Shown: piece after piece, positions 25,156-34,607 of the stretch | Numbering within the stretch: position 1 is the stretch's first letter | Layout of the letters: the number at the start of each line of letters is the position of its first letter | NCBI GenBank assembly: GCA_030447685.1 | Contig: JAUJOK010000013.1 | Location: 23,134-87,133, forward strand | Reading direction: 5' to 3' | DNA from: Armatimonadaceae bacterium | GTDB lineage: Bacteria; Armatimonadota; Armatimonadia; Armatimonadales; Armatimonadaceae | Length of the DNA: 64,000 nt | Notes under the pieces: model-generated | Database searches by the model: none | Told to the model about the DNA's origin: nothing | Seen by the model: the letters and a program-made list of their open reading frames with translations, nothing else | Translations under genes and position numbers: made by a program

Positions 25156-26559
<1,404 letters not shown>

Positions 26560-26712: not shown

Positions 26713-27183
26713 TCACACAACTGGAAGACGGCTGATCTCTAATATGCGCGCGTCACTCTTATCCCCGATGTTCTTCCGGGTCATCGCTAAAAGGCCGCGC
26801 TTCTCCACCGCCGCCAGTCCGCCGTCTATATCGCCAAGCACATGGAGGACGAATCGCGGCTTTGACAGCATACGCCCTGCCGCCAAGCGCGCGCCGGATG
26901 AAATTCAGCAGAATCTTGCCCGCCACATCCGGGTCGTCAATGGCTACTCGCGGATGCGCGAAGGGACGCGCGATTTCATAATCGCGGCGTCCCTCGTAGT
27001 CGTTCGCTTCCGCTCCGACAGCAACGATTAACTCTGCTCGCGAAACGCCACCTGCGGCACGTCTTCATAGCTGCCGCCCGTCTCGATTATCCGCACGGAC
27101 AGCCAGTCAGGCTGTACGCGCACATAGACCGTCAGCGGGCGCAGCGCGAACTTCAACCTACCGGTTCCGGCCCCCGACGGCAT
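26713..27183 (-). CDS. Short MreB-like (rod-shape-determining) protein, frame-broken
   Basis: Reading minus-strand frames in order gives 'VYVRVQPDWLSVRIIETG', 'IVAVGAEANDYEGRRDYE', 'FAHPRVAIDDPDVAGKILLN', then 'FVLHVLGDIDGGLAAVEKRG' and 'ARILEISRLPVV'. This matches the N-terminal part of MreB and the short MreB-like proteins of about 150 residues that lack the full actin fold. Frame changes lie near 27028 and 26858. ATG at 27183 starts in frame inside the end of the small membrane protein. Its presence between argF and argG is unexpected. Confidence 0.6.
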
Positions 27184-27328
27184 TGATAATGATCAGCACG
27201 ATTCCGGCAATCATCGCGATGCTGGCGATGGGGTTCAGCAATCCCCACCGCCAGCGCCAAATGGACAGCGATTCCAATCAGCAGCAGCGCCCACCCAGTT
27301 CCATCAACCCACCACGACCACGCAGCAT
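27158..27328 (-). CDS. Small two-helix membrane protein, one frame change
   Basis: AAGGAG precedes ATG at 27328, 12 bases after the argF stop. Combining frames gives a protein of about 56 residues with '[17 protein letters not shown]' and '[20 protein letters not shown]' as two transmembrane helices, ending RNR. The frame change falls at a GGGG run near 27242. The first 15 codons ([13 protein letters not shown]) end early unless a further base is missing, so the N-terminus is uncertain. No family recognised. Confidence 0.5.
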
Positions 27329-27340
27329 ATTGTTTCTCCT

Positions 27341-28757
27341 TTATAAGACGGCGGCCAGCAGGGCCGCCTGAACATGAAGCCGATTTCGGCCTGGTCGAAG
27401 ACGCCCGCGCAGGGGCCTTCCAGAACCGAATCGGTAATCTCCTGGCCGCGATGGGCGGGCAGGCAGTGGAGAACGAGAACGTCTTCCTTCGCCTCGCGCA
27501 CCAGATCGTCATTAATCTGGAAGCCCGCGAAGTCGCGTGACCGGCGCTCCGATTCGTCCTCCTGCCCCATCGAGGCCCAGACATCGGTATATACACGACA
27601 TCCGCGTCATCCACGGCTCCCATGGCGTCGCTGGTGATGCTGAAAGTGGTGCCGTGCTCGCGGGCGCGGGCCTGCGCCTGTGCGGTCAGAGCGGACGCGG
27701 GGGCGTAGCCGGGCGGACAGGCAAGCGTGAAGTGCGGTCCCAGCAGCGGGGCGAGCAGCATGAGCGAATGGGCGACTTTGTGGCCGTCGCCGACAAAGGC
27801 CAGTGTCATGCCGCGCGTGTCCGATTTCTTTTCCAGGATGGTATAAAAATCGGCGAGCGCCTGGCAGGGATGCTCCCGGTCCGTCAAGGCATTAATCACC
27901 GGAATGTTCGCGGCATCGGCAAGCTGGGTGACGGTGTCATGCGAAAAGGTACGAGCGGCGACGGCATCGACCCACCGCTCCAGACAGCGCGCCACGTCCG
28001 CGACCGATTCGCGCGTTCCCAGGCCGATGTCGGTAGGCGACAGATAGATGCTCTGCCCGCCCAGGCGGGTCATGGCGACGGAAAAGGTAACGCGGGTCCG
28101 CAGTGACGGCTTTTCAAAAATCAAGGCAAGCGACTTCTGCTGTCCGTTGGCGGGATAGCGACCGCTTTTTATCTCGCGCGTAAGCTCGAACAGGCCCCGT
28201 ATCTCTGCCTGGGAAAAATCGGCAATACTGAGCAGGTCGCGCCCTTTAAGAAAGCCGGGCCGAACCTCTGATTCCTGGCGTGTGGTTTCCGCTGCGGAGT
28301 CTGCTGCCCCGCTCGTCTCCGCCCGGACGCTGCTCAGCAGGGGCAGGGCGCGCTCATAGCGGATATTCAGGATTTGCAGCGCCTCGGATACGACCTCGCT
28401 GCCACTCCCGCGCGTCAGCGCCAGCAGCAGATGCTCGGTGCCGACATGCCCATTGCCGGTCTGCCCGGTTTCCCGATACGCCTGCTCGATCACCTGGAGT
28501 GTCGCCGGGCTGAGCTGCGAGCTGGCGGCGGCAGGCGAGCTGCCATTTGCATCCGGCATACGCGCCGCTGCGGCGTCTCGTATCTGGGAGGCGGCGACGC
28601 CCAGGCGGTCCAGCAGCCGGATCGCGGCGGTACCATCCTCATGAATCAAACCCAGCAGCAGATGTTCCGGCTCCACGGACGGCTGCCCCAGACGCATCGC
28701 CTCTTCCTGCGCCCAGAACAGCGCCTTGCGCCCGTTTTGCGTAAACTGAATCGCCAT
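27341..28757 (-). CDS. argF: Clp-N domain fused to ornithine carbamoyltransferase
   Basis: One frame from ATG 28757 (GAAGGAGGGAG just upstream) encodes two Clp-N repeats (residues 5-67 with '[20 protein letters not shown]', 82-145 with '[13 protein letters not shown]'), a 25-residue linker and a complete OTCase. The OTCase has the carbamoyl-phosphate loop '[12 protein letters not shown]', '[10 protein letters not shown]', '[12 protein letters not shown]' and '[11 protein letters not shown]'. E31 and E108 match ClpC E32 and E106, which bind phosphoarginine as I recall. Two indels interrupt the C-terminal third: an extra TA near 27590 and one missing A near 27380, after which the normal end ('[14 protein letters not shown]') is restored. 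No internal start with a ribosome site precedes the OTCase part. It makes citrulline from ornithine; the Clp-N role is unknown. Confidence 0.88.
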
Positions 28758-30930: not shown

Positions 30931-31326
30931 TTAGGGAACTACCGTAACGGAGCCGAACTGTCTAAAATGCTGATCGAAGGCAAAAGCGTGCGTCAAGCCC
31001 AGTCGTTCGATAACGACTTTGCTGGTGCAATCGGTAAAACTCCACTCTTTGTCCGAAAACTGGACGAAAGTTTGCCATGCTGCCCGCAGATCATCTTCCG
31101 TCAGGTGATATACCTGCGTCAATATTCCATCGAAAAACTGCTGTCCCAGCGTCAGCGCCACATCTCCCTGTCGTCGCGCCCGCAATAGTGTCAGCGTCTC
31201 ATCCACAACGTAGTTGGTGGTGACAAGGGGCTGCGTGTTATGAGCAAACCAGTGAGAAGCAACGGAATAATTTAGATCGTTGGTGACACTGGCAGCAAAC
31301 CAGGCTCCGGTGTCTACGAAAATCAA
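30931..31326 (-). CDS. PIN-domain ribonuclease, VapC-like toxin
   Basis: 131 residues. The acidic PIN residues are in place: D5 in 'MIFVDTGAWFA', Glu in 'NYVVDETLTLL', Asp in 'WSFTDCTSKVV' and Asp in 'HAFAFDQHFRQFG'. These bind metal for RNA cleavage. The start overlaps the stop of the upstream antitoxin-like gene by four bases, as in many toxin-antitoxin pairs. The pair sits inside the arginine operon between argJ and argB. Confidence 0.9.
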   Translation of the reverse strand: MIFVDTGAWFAASVTNDLNYSVASHWFAHNTQPLVTTNYVVDETLTLLRARRQGDVALTLGQQFFDGILTQVYHLTEDDLRAAWQTFVQFSDKEWSFTDCTSKVVIERLGLTHAFAFDQHFRQFGSVTVVP

Positions 31327-31580
31327 CGCGCGCCCTTCTCACCATATAAGATGTGGTCATGATCACGACTGGAGGTCTCCACCTCGCCATGCGATATGGA
31401 CAGCGCGGCTATTTCCGCCATGATCTGCGCCGGAGTTCGGGGGTCGGTCTTTGGGCCGTCTAAAAGTTTCACGCCATTGGCAACGACAGTGACTTTAACC
31501 TGCGCTCCCTCAGGCAATTCTACCGGCTCCAGCAAACGCAGAACGCCCGCTTCATAAATAGCTTCCACTGTGGTCGTCAT
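31323..31580 (-). CDS. AF2212/DUF104-like antitoxin
   Basis: 85 residues starting at the ATG at 31580 inside a longer open frame. 'TTTVEAIYEAGVLRLLEPVE' followed by 'LPEGAQVKVTVV' is the DUF104 (AF2212-like) beta-strand signature of antitoxins paired with PIN toxins. The C-terminal 50 residues are charged and probably wrap the toxin. The start is chosen by homology to the family's first strand; the ribosome site (AAGAAAGAGA) is weak. Confidence 0.82.
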   Translation of the reverse strand: MTTTVEAIYEAGVLRLLEPVELPEGAQVKVTVVANGVKLLDGPKTDPRTPAQIMAEIAALSISHGEVETSSRDHDHILYGEKGAR

Positions 31581-31611
31581 GCCAGTCTCTTTCTTAGCCG
31601 GAGCATCCTTA

Positions 31612-32874
31612 TCAGGTGTGGTACTCGGCGTTGATGCGGACGTAGTCGTAGGACAGGTCGCAGGTGTAGACGGTTGCGGTCTCCTCGCCCATTGCCAGGT
31701 CAACTCGGATTTCAACCTCTTTTTCGCGCATCGCTTCGGAGACGGCGGCGGCATCGAAGGGCGCGGGCGTGCCGTGCTTAAAGATACAGGTCCCGGCCAG
31801 CCAGGCGGTCGCCGCGTCCGGGTTGAATTGGACGCCCGCGCGGCCCGCCGCCATCAGGATACGGCCCCAATTGGGGTCGTTGCCGAACAGCGCGGTCTTC
31901 ACCAGCGGCGATTCGGCGACGGTTTTGGCCACCTGCCGCGCGTCGGCGTCGCTGGCCGCGCCGGTGACACGGACGGTGACAAGTTTGGTCGCCCCCTCGC
32001 CGTCGCGGGCCACCTCTTTCGCCAGATGGACGCAGACCTGGGTGAGCGCGCGGGTGAAGGTGCGGTAATCCGTCCCCTCGTCCGTGATGGTCGCGTTGCC
32101 CGCCGCGCCGGAGGCGAGTGCGAAACAGGAATCGTTGGTGGACGTGTCGCCGTCCACGGTCAAACAGTTGAACGATACGTGGACGGCTTCGCGCAGCGCC
32201 CGGTCTAACAAGCGCGGCTCAATGGCCACATCGGTGGTCAGAAAGGCCAGCATGGTCGCCATGTTGGGCGCGATCATGCCGGACCCCTTCGCCATTCCCC
32301 CGACATGCGCCCGCACGCCCCCGCAGGTAAAGGCGACGGCGTACTCTTTGGAAAATGTATCCGTGGTCAAAATCGCCTCGGCGGCGTGCGCGGCAGCGGC
32401 GATGCTCGGCTCCATCTGGCCTGCCGTTTCTGCAATGCCCAGAAGCAGTTTTTCCATCGGAAGCGGCGTGCCGATAATGCCGGTGGAGGCGGTCAGAACC
32501 GTTTCGGCGGAAAGGCCCAGAGCATCGGCGGCGGCGCGGGCCATCTGCTCGTTGTCCTCTTCGCCCCGGCGGCCAGTGCCCGTGTTGGCGTTGCCCGCAT
32601 TCACCACAAGGGCGCGCACAGCACTGCCTGCCCGTTTTTGCAGAATGCTCTCGCTGCGCGTCACACAGGGCGCGCGCACGACATTGGTGGTGAAGACACC
32701 CGCCGCCGCTACATCGTCGGTGGTGCAGAGCAGCAAAGCGACATCGCGCCGCTTGCGCTTGATGCCGCAGCGTACCCCGGCGACGGAAAAGCCGCGCGCG
32801 GCACAGACGCCCCCGGCCACTTCTCGTAAATCCGTCATTTCCACCGCGTCTGCTTCCGCTGTTTCTACGGCCAT
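31612..32874 (-). CDS. argJ: Bifunctional ornithine acetyltransferase / N-acetylglutamate synthase
   Basis: 420 residues. Recycles the acetyl group from N-acetylornithine to glutamate and may also use acetyl-CoA. 'KGSGMIAPNMATMLAFLTTD' contains the self-cleavage and nucleophile site (Met-Ala-Thr-Met). 'TVDGDTSTNDSCFALASG' and 'FGNDPNWGRILMAAGRAG' are further landmarks. Residue length and the C-terminal 'YDYVRINAEYHT' are normal. Overlaps argC by ten bases, so the two are translationally coupled. Presence of argJ explains the lack of argA and argE here. Confidence 0.95.
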   Translation of the reverse strand: MAVETAEADAVEMTDLREVAGGVCAARGFSVAGVRCGIKRKRRDVALLLCTTDDVAAAGVFTTNVVRAPCVTRSESILQKRAGSAVRALVVNAGNANTGTGRRGEEDNEQMARAAADALGLSAETVLTASTGIIGTPLPMEKLLLGIAETAGQMEPSIAAAAHAAEAILTTDTFSKEYAVAFTCGGVRAHVGGMAKGSGMIAPNMATMLAFLTTDVAIEPRLLDRALREAVHVSFNCLTVDGDTSTNDSCFALASGAAGNATITDEGTDYRTFTRALTQVCVHLAKEVARDGEGATKLVTVRVTGAASDADARQVAKTVAESPLVKTALFGNDPNWGRILMAAGRAGVQFNPDAATAWLAGTCIFKHGTPAPFDAAAVSEAMREKEVEIRVDLAMGEETATVYTCDLSYDYVRINAEYHT

Positions 32875-33923
32875 AATCCCGGCCCCTCCAGACCCATCGT
32901 CTCGGGCAGGCCGAGCATCAGATTCATATTTTGCACCGCCTGACCGGCGGCTCCCTTCACCAGGTTGTCAATCGCGCTCACCACTACCACCTGGTTTGTC
33001 CGCGTATCCACGCGTGCCGACAGATGGCAGAAGTTCGAGCCGTTGACATCTTTGGTGGACGGATAATCACCCGAATCGCGCACGCAAACAAAGGGCGCGT
33101 CGGCGTAGGCGCTTCGCAGCGTGTCGATAACCTGCTCAGTAGTCGTTGTTTTCACGGGCCGTGCGTAACAGGTCGCCAGCAGGCCGCGTGTCATGGGAAC
33201 CAGGTGCGGCGTAAAGGTAACGGTGACGTGGGCCGGTGTGGCAGCCGCCGACAACTCCTGCTCGATTTCGGGCACATGACGGTGGACACCCAGGTTATAC
33301 GGCTTCAAGGATTCGTTCACCTCGGCAAAATGGTAATCGATGCCGAATTTCGCGCGGCCCGCCCCGGAAACGCCGGATTTGGCGTCGATAATAACCCCCC
33401 TGGCGTCAATCAGGCCGCTCGACAGCAGGGGCGCGAGCGCGAGTATTGCCGCAGTGGGATAACAGCCGGGGTTCGCCACTAACTGTGCGCCCATGACAAA
33501 GTCGTGGTTCAGTTCGGGCAGGCCGTAGACCGTCTGCTGAAGCAGCGACGAAGCGACATGCTCGATCTTGTACCACGTCTCGTAGGTGTCCACGTCCCGC
33601 AGGCGGAAATCCGCCGACAGGTCAACCAGACGCTTCCCTAACTGCAAAAGCTCCGGGGCCGTCTTCATCGCCGCGCCGCTTTCCCCGGCCATAAAGAGAA
33701 CATCCGCCGCTTTGGACGCCGCGCCGACATTGAACTTCTGGCAAACGAGCGCGCCCGCCGGAGTGCCGTGCAGGCCCGGAAACGCCCGCGCCAGGGGATG
33801 ACCGGCATTGGACTCCGATACGATATAGGTGATCTGCGCCTGCGGATGGCGTGCGAGAATCCGAACCAACTCTCCCCCCGCATAACCGCTCGCTCCGATG
33901 ATCCCCACCGAAACCATTTTCAA
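32865..33923 (-). CDS. argC: N-acetyl-gamma-glutamyl-phosphate reductase
   Basis: 352 residues. NADPH-dependent reductase of arginine synthesis. The N-terminal Rossmann motif 'GIIGASGYAGGELVRIL' and the catalytic Cys in 'VANPGCYPTAAI' are present, as is the 'HRHVPEIEQEL' segment. First enzyme gene of the operon, 40 bases after the attenuator-like terminator. GGGGAGGGTTGAAA precedes the start codon at 33923. Confidence 0.95.
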   Translation of the reverse strand: MKMVSVGIIGASGYAGGELVRILARHPQAQITYIVSESNAGHPLARAFPGLHGTPAGALVCQKFNVGAASKAADVLFMAGESGAAMKTAPELLQLGKRLVDLSADFRLRDVDTYETWYKIEHVASSLLQQTVYGLPELNHDFVMGAQLVANPGCYPTAAILALAPLLSSGLIDARGVIIDAKSGVSGAGRAKFGIDYHFAEVNESLKPYNLGVHRHVPEIEQELSAAATPAHVTVTFTPHLVPMTRGLLATCYARPVKTTTTEQVIDTLRSAYADAPFVCVRDSGDYPSTKDVNGSNFCHLSARVDTRTNQVVVVSAIDNLVKGAAGQAVQNMNLMLGLPETMGLEGPGLWP

Positions 33924-33962
33924 CCCTCCCCAAAAGAGGCTTAACGTCCTCTACGGCGAATC

Positions 33963-34004
33963 CTATAAAACAACAAAGCCGCCCGGCTGTTCTCGCCGTG
34001 CGGC
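33963..34004 (-). terminator. Intrinsic terminator in the arg leader (attenuator)
   Basis: On the minus strand GCCGCACGGC, a seven-base loop and GCCGGGCGGC form a 9/10-paired stem followed by TTTGTTGTTTT. It lies between the arg promoter and argC, so it can only matter if read-through is controlled. Confidence 0.8.
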
Positions 34005-34084
34005 CCCGTGGGTTTTCTTTGATTCCCAGCGGGCGCCGCCGCTTCCACCCGGATTGTCTTTGACGACAGCATCGGGCGGAACCT

Positions 34085-34162
34085 CCACGGCTCCCGACGG
34101 GAAAATGCTACTGACCCGTTACTCTGGCCGGGTCGAACCTTTTTCCGCGTCGGCGTCCGTGG
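34085..34162 (-). promoter_or_regulatory. Alternative RNA helix segments of the arg leader
   Basis: Segment 2 (34148-34162, CCACGGACGCCGACG on the RNA) can pair with segment 3 (34085-34099, CGTCGGGAGCCGTGG) in two six-base helices around a 3x3 loop. It can also pair with the arginine codons themselves (GCGTCGTCGT). Segment 3 has its own alternative, CGTCGGG with CCCGATG further downstream. This is the arrangement expected of a ribosome-sensing attenuator; the actual folding was judged by eye. Confidence 0.55.
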
Positions 34163-34226
34163 CCTTTCTCAGGCGACGGATACGACGACGCTCACCGCGT
34201 ATCGCTGCTTCTTCGTGTGGCATCAT
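34119..34226 (-). CDS. Arginine-rich leader peptide of the arg operon
   Basis: 35 codons from ATG 34226 to TAA 34119. Residues 10-20 read RGERRRIRRLR: seven arginines in eleven codons (CGC, CGT, CGT, CGT, CGT, CGC, AGA). It begins about 20 bases after the predicted transcription start and is followed by alternative helices and a terminator before argC. The ribosome site is weak (upstream 'AGCAGTAATCACGAA'). Its place ahead of arginine biosynthesis genes suggests a sensor of charged tRNA-Arg. No similarity to a folded protein is seen. Confidence 0.65.
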   Translation of the reverse strand: MMPHEEAAIRGERRRIRRLRKATDADAEKGSTRPE

Positions 34227-34252
34227 TTCGTGATTACTGCTTTGATAGGCTC

Positions 34253-34282
34253 AGTATAACGGAAATGCGGTGCACGTGTCAA
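34253..34282 (-). promoter_or_regulatory. Promoter of the arginine operon
   Basis: Minus strand TTGACA (34277-34282), 18-base spacer, TATACT (34253-34258). Transcription would start near 34246, giving a 320-base leader before argC. I saw no ARG-box-like palindrome at the promoter. Confidence 0.8.
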
Positions 34283-34347
34283 GCCTCGAACAATTACCGC
34301 TGTGATCGCGGGCCGGTTTATGGCACAAATGAGTCAGAGGTAAGACC

Positions 34348-34521
34348 ATGAAACGATTATTCAGCACGACGATTCTGGCGCTGGTTCTTATAGTTATGGC
34401 CGTGGCGATGGGCTTTTATGTCTATCCCACGCGTCCGGCGCTGGTGTGGACGCTGCTGGCGGTGTGCTGGATGTGTTACCGGCTGCGCCTGCGCGCGGAG
34501 GCGCGCTTCGGCAAGCGCTGA
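34348..34521 (+). CDS. Small membrane protein, 57 residues
   Basis: ATG preceded by AGAGGTAAG. The sequence MKRLFSTTILALVLIVMAVA begins the first transmembrane helix, and a second (ALVWTLLAVCWMCY) follows, ending with a basic tail RLRLRAEARFGKR. A strong terminator lies 43 bases after the stop. Transcribed away from the arg operon. No family recognised, but the ribosome site, hydrophobic pattern and terminator make it likely real. Confidence 0.6.
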   Translation: MKRLFSTTILALVLIVMAVAMGFYVYPTRPALVWTLLAVCWMCYRLRLRAEARFGKR

Positions 34522-34563
34522 AGCAGGCCAGCCGTTACCGGCGAGCGGACTTAGCGAGCGAAC

Positions 34564-34607
34564 GACAGGGAGGGCGCGGGGAATTCCCCGCGCCCTCCCT
34601 GTCTTTT
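34564..34607 (+). terminator. Perfect 18-base-pair terminator
   Basis: GACAGGGAGGGCGCGGGG, AATT, and its exact complement (34564-34603), followed by TTTT. Ends the small membrane protein transcript. Confidence 0.88.

Follow-up and report, generated by a model that had tools for sequence, protein, structure and literature searches.

A computationally predicted arginine-codon attenuator upstream of argC in Armatimonadota

Leader-peptide attenuators regulate operons by a common logic in which RNA segments pair as 1:2, 2:3, or 3:4 and a short leader carries codons for the cognate amino acid. In the his operon attenuator the segments are labeled A to F, and in mycobacteria polycysteine attenuators are leaderless. 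Attenuators have been described for trp, his, leu, thr, ilv, and phe (PMC1183508, in the part available), and cysteine attenuation has been described together with other upstream open reading frame (uORF) motifs (PMC8632094, likewise available in part). The accessible portion of a survey of Actinobacteria gives no RNA element for arginine and indicates that T-boxes serve arginine elsewhere (PMC1262725). As far as the available literature text extends, arginine control is attributed to ArgR or to T-boxes, and the word arginine is absent from the main text of a survey of premature terminators. Among the matches listed from open PMC papers, a search that left subscription literature mostly outside, none described attenuation at Arg codons ahead of genes for arginine biosynthesis.

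The window, that is, the whole 64,000-nucleotide stretch of Armatimonadaceae DNA that was analyzed, contains an arginine operon preceded by a leader. On computational grounds alone, we consider this leader very probably to be a transcription attenuator of the ribosome-mediated type, sensing charged tRNA-Arg and governing the operon as a whole. The initial annotation had reported a consensus promoter, a 35-codon frame with seven Arg codons among residues 10 to 20, a segment pair competing with the Arg-codon region, and an intrinsic terminator, all ahead of argC, and each of these elements was located as follows.

34253-34282, minus strand: sigma-70-type promoter, TTGACA-18-TATACT, matching 11 of 12 consensus positions
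34119-34226, minus strand: leader peptide ORF of 35 codons, MMPHEEAAIRGERRRIRRLRKATDADAEKGSTRPE (ATG at 34226, stop at 34121-34119), with homologous ORFs in relatives
34157-34179, minus strand: hairpin 1:2, arms CCGTCGCC and GGCCACGG, overlapping the Arg codons
34157-34162, minus strand: segment 2 core CCACGG, the antiterminator strand, from sequence and folds
34085-34091, minus strand: segment 3 core GCCGTGG, predicted partner of segment 2 (stalled) or of segment 4 (not stalled)
34023-34103, minus strand: hairpin 3:4, from folds, with outer pairs 34103-34087 with 34023-34039 and inner pairs 34081-34073 with 34043-34051
34000-34042, minus strand: alternative helix 4:5, GCGGC..CCCG.TGGG with CCCACGGGGCCGC, competitor of the terminator
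33967-34004, minus strand: intrinsic terminator 5:6, from folds, with stem 34004-33978 and U-tract 33977-33967
32865-33917, minus strand: argC, first gene of the operon, matching TIGR01850 at 430.6 bits

The promoter is the sole promoter-like site in 33600-34600, where 0.3 would be expected from shuffles, and the start codon lies 26 nt past its -10 box. Residues 13 to 18 of the leader ORF form the run RRRIRR, and the Arg codons constitute the 5′ arm of hairpin 1:2. The 8-nt core GGCCACGG starts 26 nt past the first nucleotide of that run, and within it CCACGG (34162-34157) can pair with CCGTGG (34090-34085), to which the stalled-state fold adds adjacent pairs. The terminator stem is 9 bp long with one mismatch, closes on a GAGAACA loop, and precedes the U-tract TTTGTTGTTTT; it was absent from the output of a simple terminator scan, probably due to the mismatch, though present on folding. 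The leader as a whole folds with a z score of -4.57, and none of 200 shuffles was equally stable. We conclude that a small ORF, inferred to be translated and carrying a run of cognate codons, lies between a promoter and a biosynthetic operon and that an intrinsic terminator, recognized by structure and U-tract and inferred to terminate, sits between that ORF and argC.

The operon has the order argC-argJ-argB-argD-argF-argG-argH and reaches down to 23749; the gene at 25152-23749 we take to be argH from its sequence. CGT accounts for 68 of 127 Arg codons in leaders versus 6 of 78 in argC, argJ, argB, and argD of the window. Between argJ and argB, an AF2212-like/PIN-domain pair that looks like a toxin-antitoxin pair is lodged inside the operon (30931-31754, minus strand). 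The ornithine carbamoyltransferase at 27153-28757 (minus strand) has an N-terminal Clp_N domain (PF02861 plus OTCace_N). A long match (query 1-390 of 396) recurs in five genomes (G002, G003, G005, G006, and G009), which suggests that part of family f1 has conserved the fusion. The frames of argF (27304-27570) and argG (25810-26547), both on the minus strand, each appear interrupted by a shift of frame, with the OTCace domain of argF carrying on in another frame and the argG frame matching the N-terminal part of its family only. Either break may be an assembly error.

Repression of the ArgR type is the usual mechanism, and the initial annotation had inferred that this operon uses charged tRNA-Arg as its signal. 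A search for the ArgR domain PF01316 gave no match in the genome of the window (87.6% complete) or in any other of the 61 genomes searched, and the same search was positive in 9 of 14 control genomes. PF01316 was the sole regulator domain searched, and some genomes are incomplete. An Rfam search of 33600-34600 returned eight low-scoring matches, none of them at its family cut-off and none inside the leader, and no match to T-box family RF00230 was listed there, that is, before argC of the window. Across the order to which the window belongs, T-box matches occur in 18 of 19 genomes (above the Rfam cut-off in 3), and thus tRNA-sensing RNAs probably serve other genes there. The window's own genome has T-box-like RNAs below the Rfam cut-off at G000:C104:24226-24545, C86:7277-7511, and C82:78822-79143, the first of which lies about 8.4 kb before leuA (C104:32991). 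Membership in the speF orf34/DUF2618 family fails, as that leader precedes an ornithine decarboxylase gene in the part of the source available (PMC6386406) and the leader of the window precedes argC.

Relatives were surveyed with an argC query, which matched in 57 of 61 relatives and 250 of 291 genomes of the phylum, a few matches being weak (e.g., G011 and G056). A first set of 86 argC upstream regions and a second set of 40 were inspected; in the first, G022 is counted twice and five regions are shorter than 650 nt (80, 258, 394, 434, and 461). The window's order is represented by 19 genomes, in 15 of which argC is complete or almost so and its upstream region readable, and an Arg leader ORF was found in all 15 (eight of family f1, seven of f2), that of L003 having just two Arg codons. 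Beyond the order, leaders were present in 8 of 13 upstream regions of family f9 and 3 of 10 of f24, and a differing form was present in L161 and L227 of f11 and not in L023. The leader was absent from the remaining seven f24 regions and from nearly all other families inspected.

A strict detector required a promoter matching at least 10 of 12 positions, a start codon at most 70 nt away, 10 to 50 codons, and at least four Arg in six residues. Promoter and Arg-run ORF were detected together in 23 of the 86 upstream regions and in none of 86 reverse strands, 1,720 dinucleotide shuffles, or 74 argC upstream regions of other records. The last control was drawn from 80 argC loci after three same-phylum loci and three with less than 530 nt upstream were dropped; four of its members are titled merely "bacterium," and the others are named to other phyla or groups. 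For residues other than Arg, the detector gave no hit. In the second set 2 of 40 regions passed, one of which was not accepted. L233 (G199) passes the detector with a GTG start and was not counted as a leader, and L013, an early candidate, was dropped as it fails both the four-in-six rule and the detector. Of the 25 leaders compared in detail, 24 have an ORF preceded by a promoter of at least 10/12, compared to 24 of 1,000 shuffles. We conclude that a chance origin is ruled out by the combination of promoter and ORF.

The start codon lies 6 to 10 nt past the -10 box in 11 of 25 leaders, and, given the usual distance from the -10 box to the transcript start, the mRNA is therefore probably leaderless or nearly so in these cases. 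Some upstream regions have further peculiarities. A possible leader, MKYVTNNTRRPRRV, with a weaker promoter (9/12), occurs in L245 (G286) of family f45. In L032 (G016), the leader is about 770 nt from argC due to an extra intervening ORF that reads, by eye, like a GNAT acetyltransferase. In f11, L161 (G255) and L227 (G256) encode a minimal leader, MTI(V/A)FLIAKTRVRRR followed by a stop, which in L227 starts 9 nt past the -10 box; the hairpin GCGCAGAT..ATCTGCGC, followed by GCGGTTTT, overlaps the Arg codons themselves.

The presence of an Arg run in nearly all leaders could also indicate that arrest by the nascent Arg-rich peptide, or free arginine in the exit tunnel, positions the ribosome rather than a shortage of tRNA-Arg. 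The fungal arginine attenuator peptide causes an arrest that involves free arginine in the exit tunnel, and an ATDxxAE-like stretch downstream of the run recurs in family f1 (in L001 and L002, less so in L003 and L004). The recurring stretch, however, coincides with RNA segment 2 (GGCCACGG), and outside the Arg run the peptides vary between families in sequence and length (17 to 35 amino acids), as does the distance from start to run. Moreover, synonymous Arg codons vary, CGA, AGA, and AGG included. We consider peptide arrest improbable and favor a ribosome stalled for want of charged tRNA-Arg.

The segments of the window have counterparts in relatives, arranged in more than one way. In f2, f9, and f24, hairpin 3:4 has segment 3 (GAGCCGTGGGC and variants) as its 5′ arm and, by eye, is followed by a U-rich tract (T1) in 12 of 17 leaders. 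As 11 of these 12 carry a further terminator, T2, before argC, they have a tandem pair. Six of the eight f1 leaders, that of the window included, combine a single terminator 5:6 with a 3:4 hairpin that lacks an evident U-tract, and L007 and L024 have a lone short terminator that we read as 3:4. The hairpin 1:2 arrangement was seen by eye in L002 and L003 also. In 17 of 23 leaders, segment 2 begins 26 to 30 nt past the run's first Arg codon (range over the 23, 16 to 35), which is close to the point where it would emerge from the front of a stalled ribosome.

Covariation of the helices was analyzed on alignment A1, made from sequence only, which holds 15 of the 17 f2, f9, and f24 pieces (L030 and L031 were excluded, and L154, misaligned in segment 2, was counted unchanged). 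Helix 2:3 has 94.3% of its cells paired in A1, compared to 33 to 46% when the arms are slid (maximum, 45.7%). Two of its pairs are changed on both sides, a count that is itself unexceptional (233 of 500 shuffles), and its covariation score was reached by 5 of 500 shuffles. The outer 3:4 helix of the same families is 95.6% paired, with 1 of 500 shuffles reaching its covariation score. A table of 18 distinct 2:3 core pairs, its register partly set by hand, takes in f1, L030, and L031 and omits 2 of the 25 leaders, L003 and L007, in which no homologous segment pair could be assigned. In this table 82.6% of cells pair, and none of 500 shuffles reached either that pairing or the covariation score; 12 cells are doubly changed, compared to 3.9 in shuffles (0 of 500). 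Examples of the core are GCCCACG:CGTGGGC, GCTTGCG:CGCAAGC, GACCACG:CGTGGTC, GGTCACG:CGTGACC, and GCCCGCG:CGCGGGC.

Swapping partners between families gave a similar indication for hand-picked segments, with own versus swapped values of -22.75 versus -16.05 for 2:3 and -20.05 versus -15.39 for 4:5, neither difference being reached in 20,000 permutations. Because the segments had been picked by eye, the test was redone for 2:3 with automatic windows, and the difference was reached in 0 of 20,000 permutations at 50 nt and 8 of 20,000 at 70 nt. Conservation of 4:5 is supported by the hand-picked swap only. Individually, 2:3 was unremarkable by swapping in L003, L007, L153, L149, and L154, as was 4:5 in L146, L147, L148, L152, L031, and L145. 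Against dinucleotide shuffles of segment 2 the mean z was -1.37 (50 nt) and -0.79 (70 nt), and the window's own duplex of segment 2 with downstream sequence was, alone, no better than such shuffles (z of 0.2 and 0.3). The argument therefore draws its weight from conservation and from where the switch lies, rather than from the strength of the helix in this single sequence. We conclude that the comparative search upstream of argC, by which the initial annotation was to be checked, bears it out: relatives retain both the Arg run and helix 2:3, and the helix covaries.

Conservation could alternatively reflect a riboswitch that binds a protein or ligand, or the operator of a DNA-binding regulator, with the ORF being fortuitous, and in favor of such a site segment 3 is strongly conserved as GAGCCGTGGG in f2, f9, and f24. 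Yet segment 3 changes jointly with segment 2, no conserved core is seen by eye outside the pairing segments, and promoter, start, and Arg run remain together. With no Rfam family at its cut-off in or near the leader, we give a riboswitch or operator scarcely any credence and retain the translated attenuator. A covariance model built from the 15 f2, f9, and f24 leaders was searched over the 291 genomes and matched 18: the 15 training genomes, G078 (before argC), G069 (where the contig stops at the point at which argC would start), and G131. The G131 match (E value of 0.004) lies, by eye, within a coding stretch and was taken as chance. These matches give no evidence of a wider regulon, within the limit that the model fails to recover the divergent f1 form, that of the window among them, as well as G012 and G015.

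The leader was folded with a ribosome footprint assumed to reach 12 nt upstream and 15 nt downstream of the first P-site base. In the window the probability of 2:3 was 0.9 to 1.0 only with the A site on the RRRIRR run and at most 0.37 elsewhere. The terminator 5:6 fell to 0.44 to 0.48 on the run and was at least 0.89 at all other positions, reaching 0.99 at most downstream codons. The outer pairs of 3:4 had a probability of 0.00 at zero-based codons 12 to 17 and of 0.96 to 0.98 at codons 22, 27, and 31, with intermediate values off the run (0.31 to 0.38 at codons 10 and 11, 0.07 to 0.27 at 18 to 20, and 0.18 at the stop). At codons 18 to 20 and at the stop, 5:6 still forms even though outer 3:4 is low. 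Helix 4:5 was at about 0.6 on the run and likewise at codons 18 and 19. An interpretation of the window's 3:4 as the inner hairpin only proved wrong, as the inner hairpin stood at 0.85 to 0.97 in every state and the outer pairs switch. When the middle of the leader was shuffled, 6 of 150 sequences gave a 5:6 drop of at least 0.5 (observed, 0.54). Thus, the fold that the initial annotation called for gave 2:3 on the Arg run and a terminator reduced from 0.99 to about 0.46. Its competing helix does exclude outer 3:4 but does not act on the window's terminator directly; the effect arrives by relay. We conclude that the anatomy, the conservation, the covariation of 2:3, and position-dependent switching in the equilibrium folds of the window are established computationally.

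A mutually exclusive antiterminator set by ribosome position is present in the folds of the window, and relatives are mixed. When transcripts were truncated past segment 3, a ribosome placed on the run allowed 2:3 to form in 21 of 23 leaders (L002 and L004 show no switch), and on average 2:3 is lost once the ribosome passes, a loss that is partly a mere consequence of the footprint covering segment 2. Even with the ribosome at the stop, about half of 2:3 persists in L014, L032, and L030. At full-length equilibrium, 11 of 25 leaders lose at least 0.2 of 3:4 or 5:6 with the ribosome on the run, of which L003, L004, L015, and L030 lose only a 3:4 without an evident U-tract, and L010, L146, and L152 change by at least 0.2 in the opposite direction. 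Most relatives keep the terminator at equilibrium, and thus kinetic trapping of 2:3 must be assumed for them.

The same truncated transcripts form 2:3 without any ribosome in 12 of 23 leaders, which would be consistent with a response to general slowing of translation, to uncoupling, or to some other signal, the Arg codons being merely slow or structural. The repeated CGTCGTCGC also doubles as RNA pairing, in that the Arg codons are the 5′ arm of 1:2. However, no ORF with a run of Ser or Val, the other readings of the repeat, passes the detector; furthermore, the run of f11 is spelled CGC GTC AGG CGC AGA, without the repeat, and the genes downstream are those of arginine synthesis. A general response of this kind is very unlikely, and we continue with Arg-specific attenuation.

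We propose that the switch operates as follows. A ribosome would begin the 35-codon leader shortly after transcription starts. With charged tRNA-Arg scarce, it is predicted to stall on the RRRIRR run, masking segment 1 and leaving segment 2 free, such that 2:3 would form, outer 3:4 would be blocked, and segment 4 would pair with segment 5. That pairing would weaken terminator 5:6, and RNA polymerase would continue into argC. With Arg plentiful, the ribosome would pass, segment 2 would be masked and then locked in hairpin 1:2, and 3:4 could form, leaving 5:6 to stop transcription. The identity of the signal as charged tRNA-Arg is an inference, and stalling, termination, the response to arginine in the cell, and the response of read-through to the aminoacyl-tRNA level are likewise inferred. 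We conclude that leader-peptide attenuation of the operon, as first annotated, is supported by the conserved Arg run, the covarying 2:3 helix, and switching in the window, with termination in vivo remaining an inference.

A broader proposal, for which we judge the chances to be a little short of even, is that in these Armatimonadota lineages a tRNA-Arg attenuator replaces ArgR as the main control. In this proposal many of the attenuators would be double, one stalled ribosome flipping a six-segment chain and disarming two serial intrinsic terminators; many would act from leaderless mRNA with the first codon at or beside the 5′ end; and f11 would represent a second, minimal design whose terminator hairpin itself contains the Arg codons. 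The list of amino acids sensed in this way would be extended by an attenuator specific for Arg, here in a little-studied phylum that yielded no ArgR. The 25 leaders also provide a comparative set for the evolution of ribosome-position switches, the upkeep of tandem terminators, and the leader preference for CGT.

Among known systems, Salmonella speF orf34 shares consecutive Arg codons in an upstream ORF and a change in mRNA fold when ribosomes pause at low arginine, but, in the accessible part of its description, it regulates ornithine decarboxylase by way of mRNA stability, translation, and Rho, with no intrinsic terminator before arginine biosynthesis (PMC6386406). The carA gene of Pseudomonas aeruginosa, in a source available in part, has a leader peptide before a gene of arginine/pyrimidine synthesis, differing in gene and phylum (PMC4997734). 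The uORFC-8-2 motif of Rhodobacterales cysS resembles the window in its conserved uORF, cognate codons, terminator, and discovery by comparative genomics and differs in its amino acid (cysteine), its gene (an aminoacyl-tRNA synthetase), and its two prominent stems, as far as the available text describes it (PMC8632094). The trp, leu, thr, ilv, and phe attenuators share the 1:2, 2:3, 3:4 logic and cognate codons, according to the part of the source available (PMC1183508), whereas the window leader differs in amino acid and has six segments. The enteric his attenuator, as portrayed in the same partial source, is like the window both in a leader peptide rich in the amino acid of its pathway and in an additional hairpin, situated between the first one and the terminator, that permits a relay (PMC1183508). 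In contrast to his, the leaders of Armatimonadota use Arg rather than His codons, belong to a different phylum, and in 11 of 25 cases have, by eye, a U-rich tract after 3:4 and a second terminator in tandem. We conclude that much the best reading of the locus is an attenuator that works like that of his and is new in its amino acid, its phylum, and the frequency of its tandem terminators.
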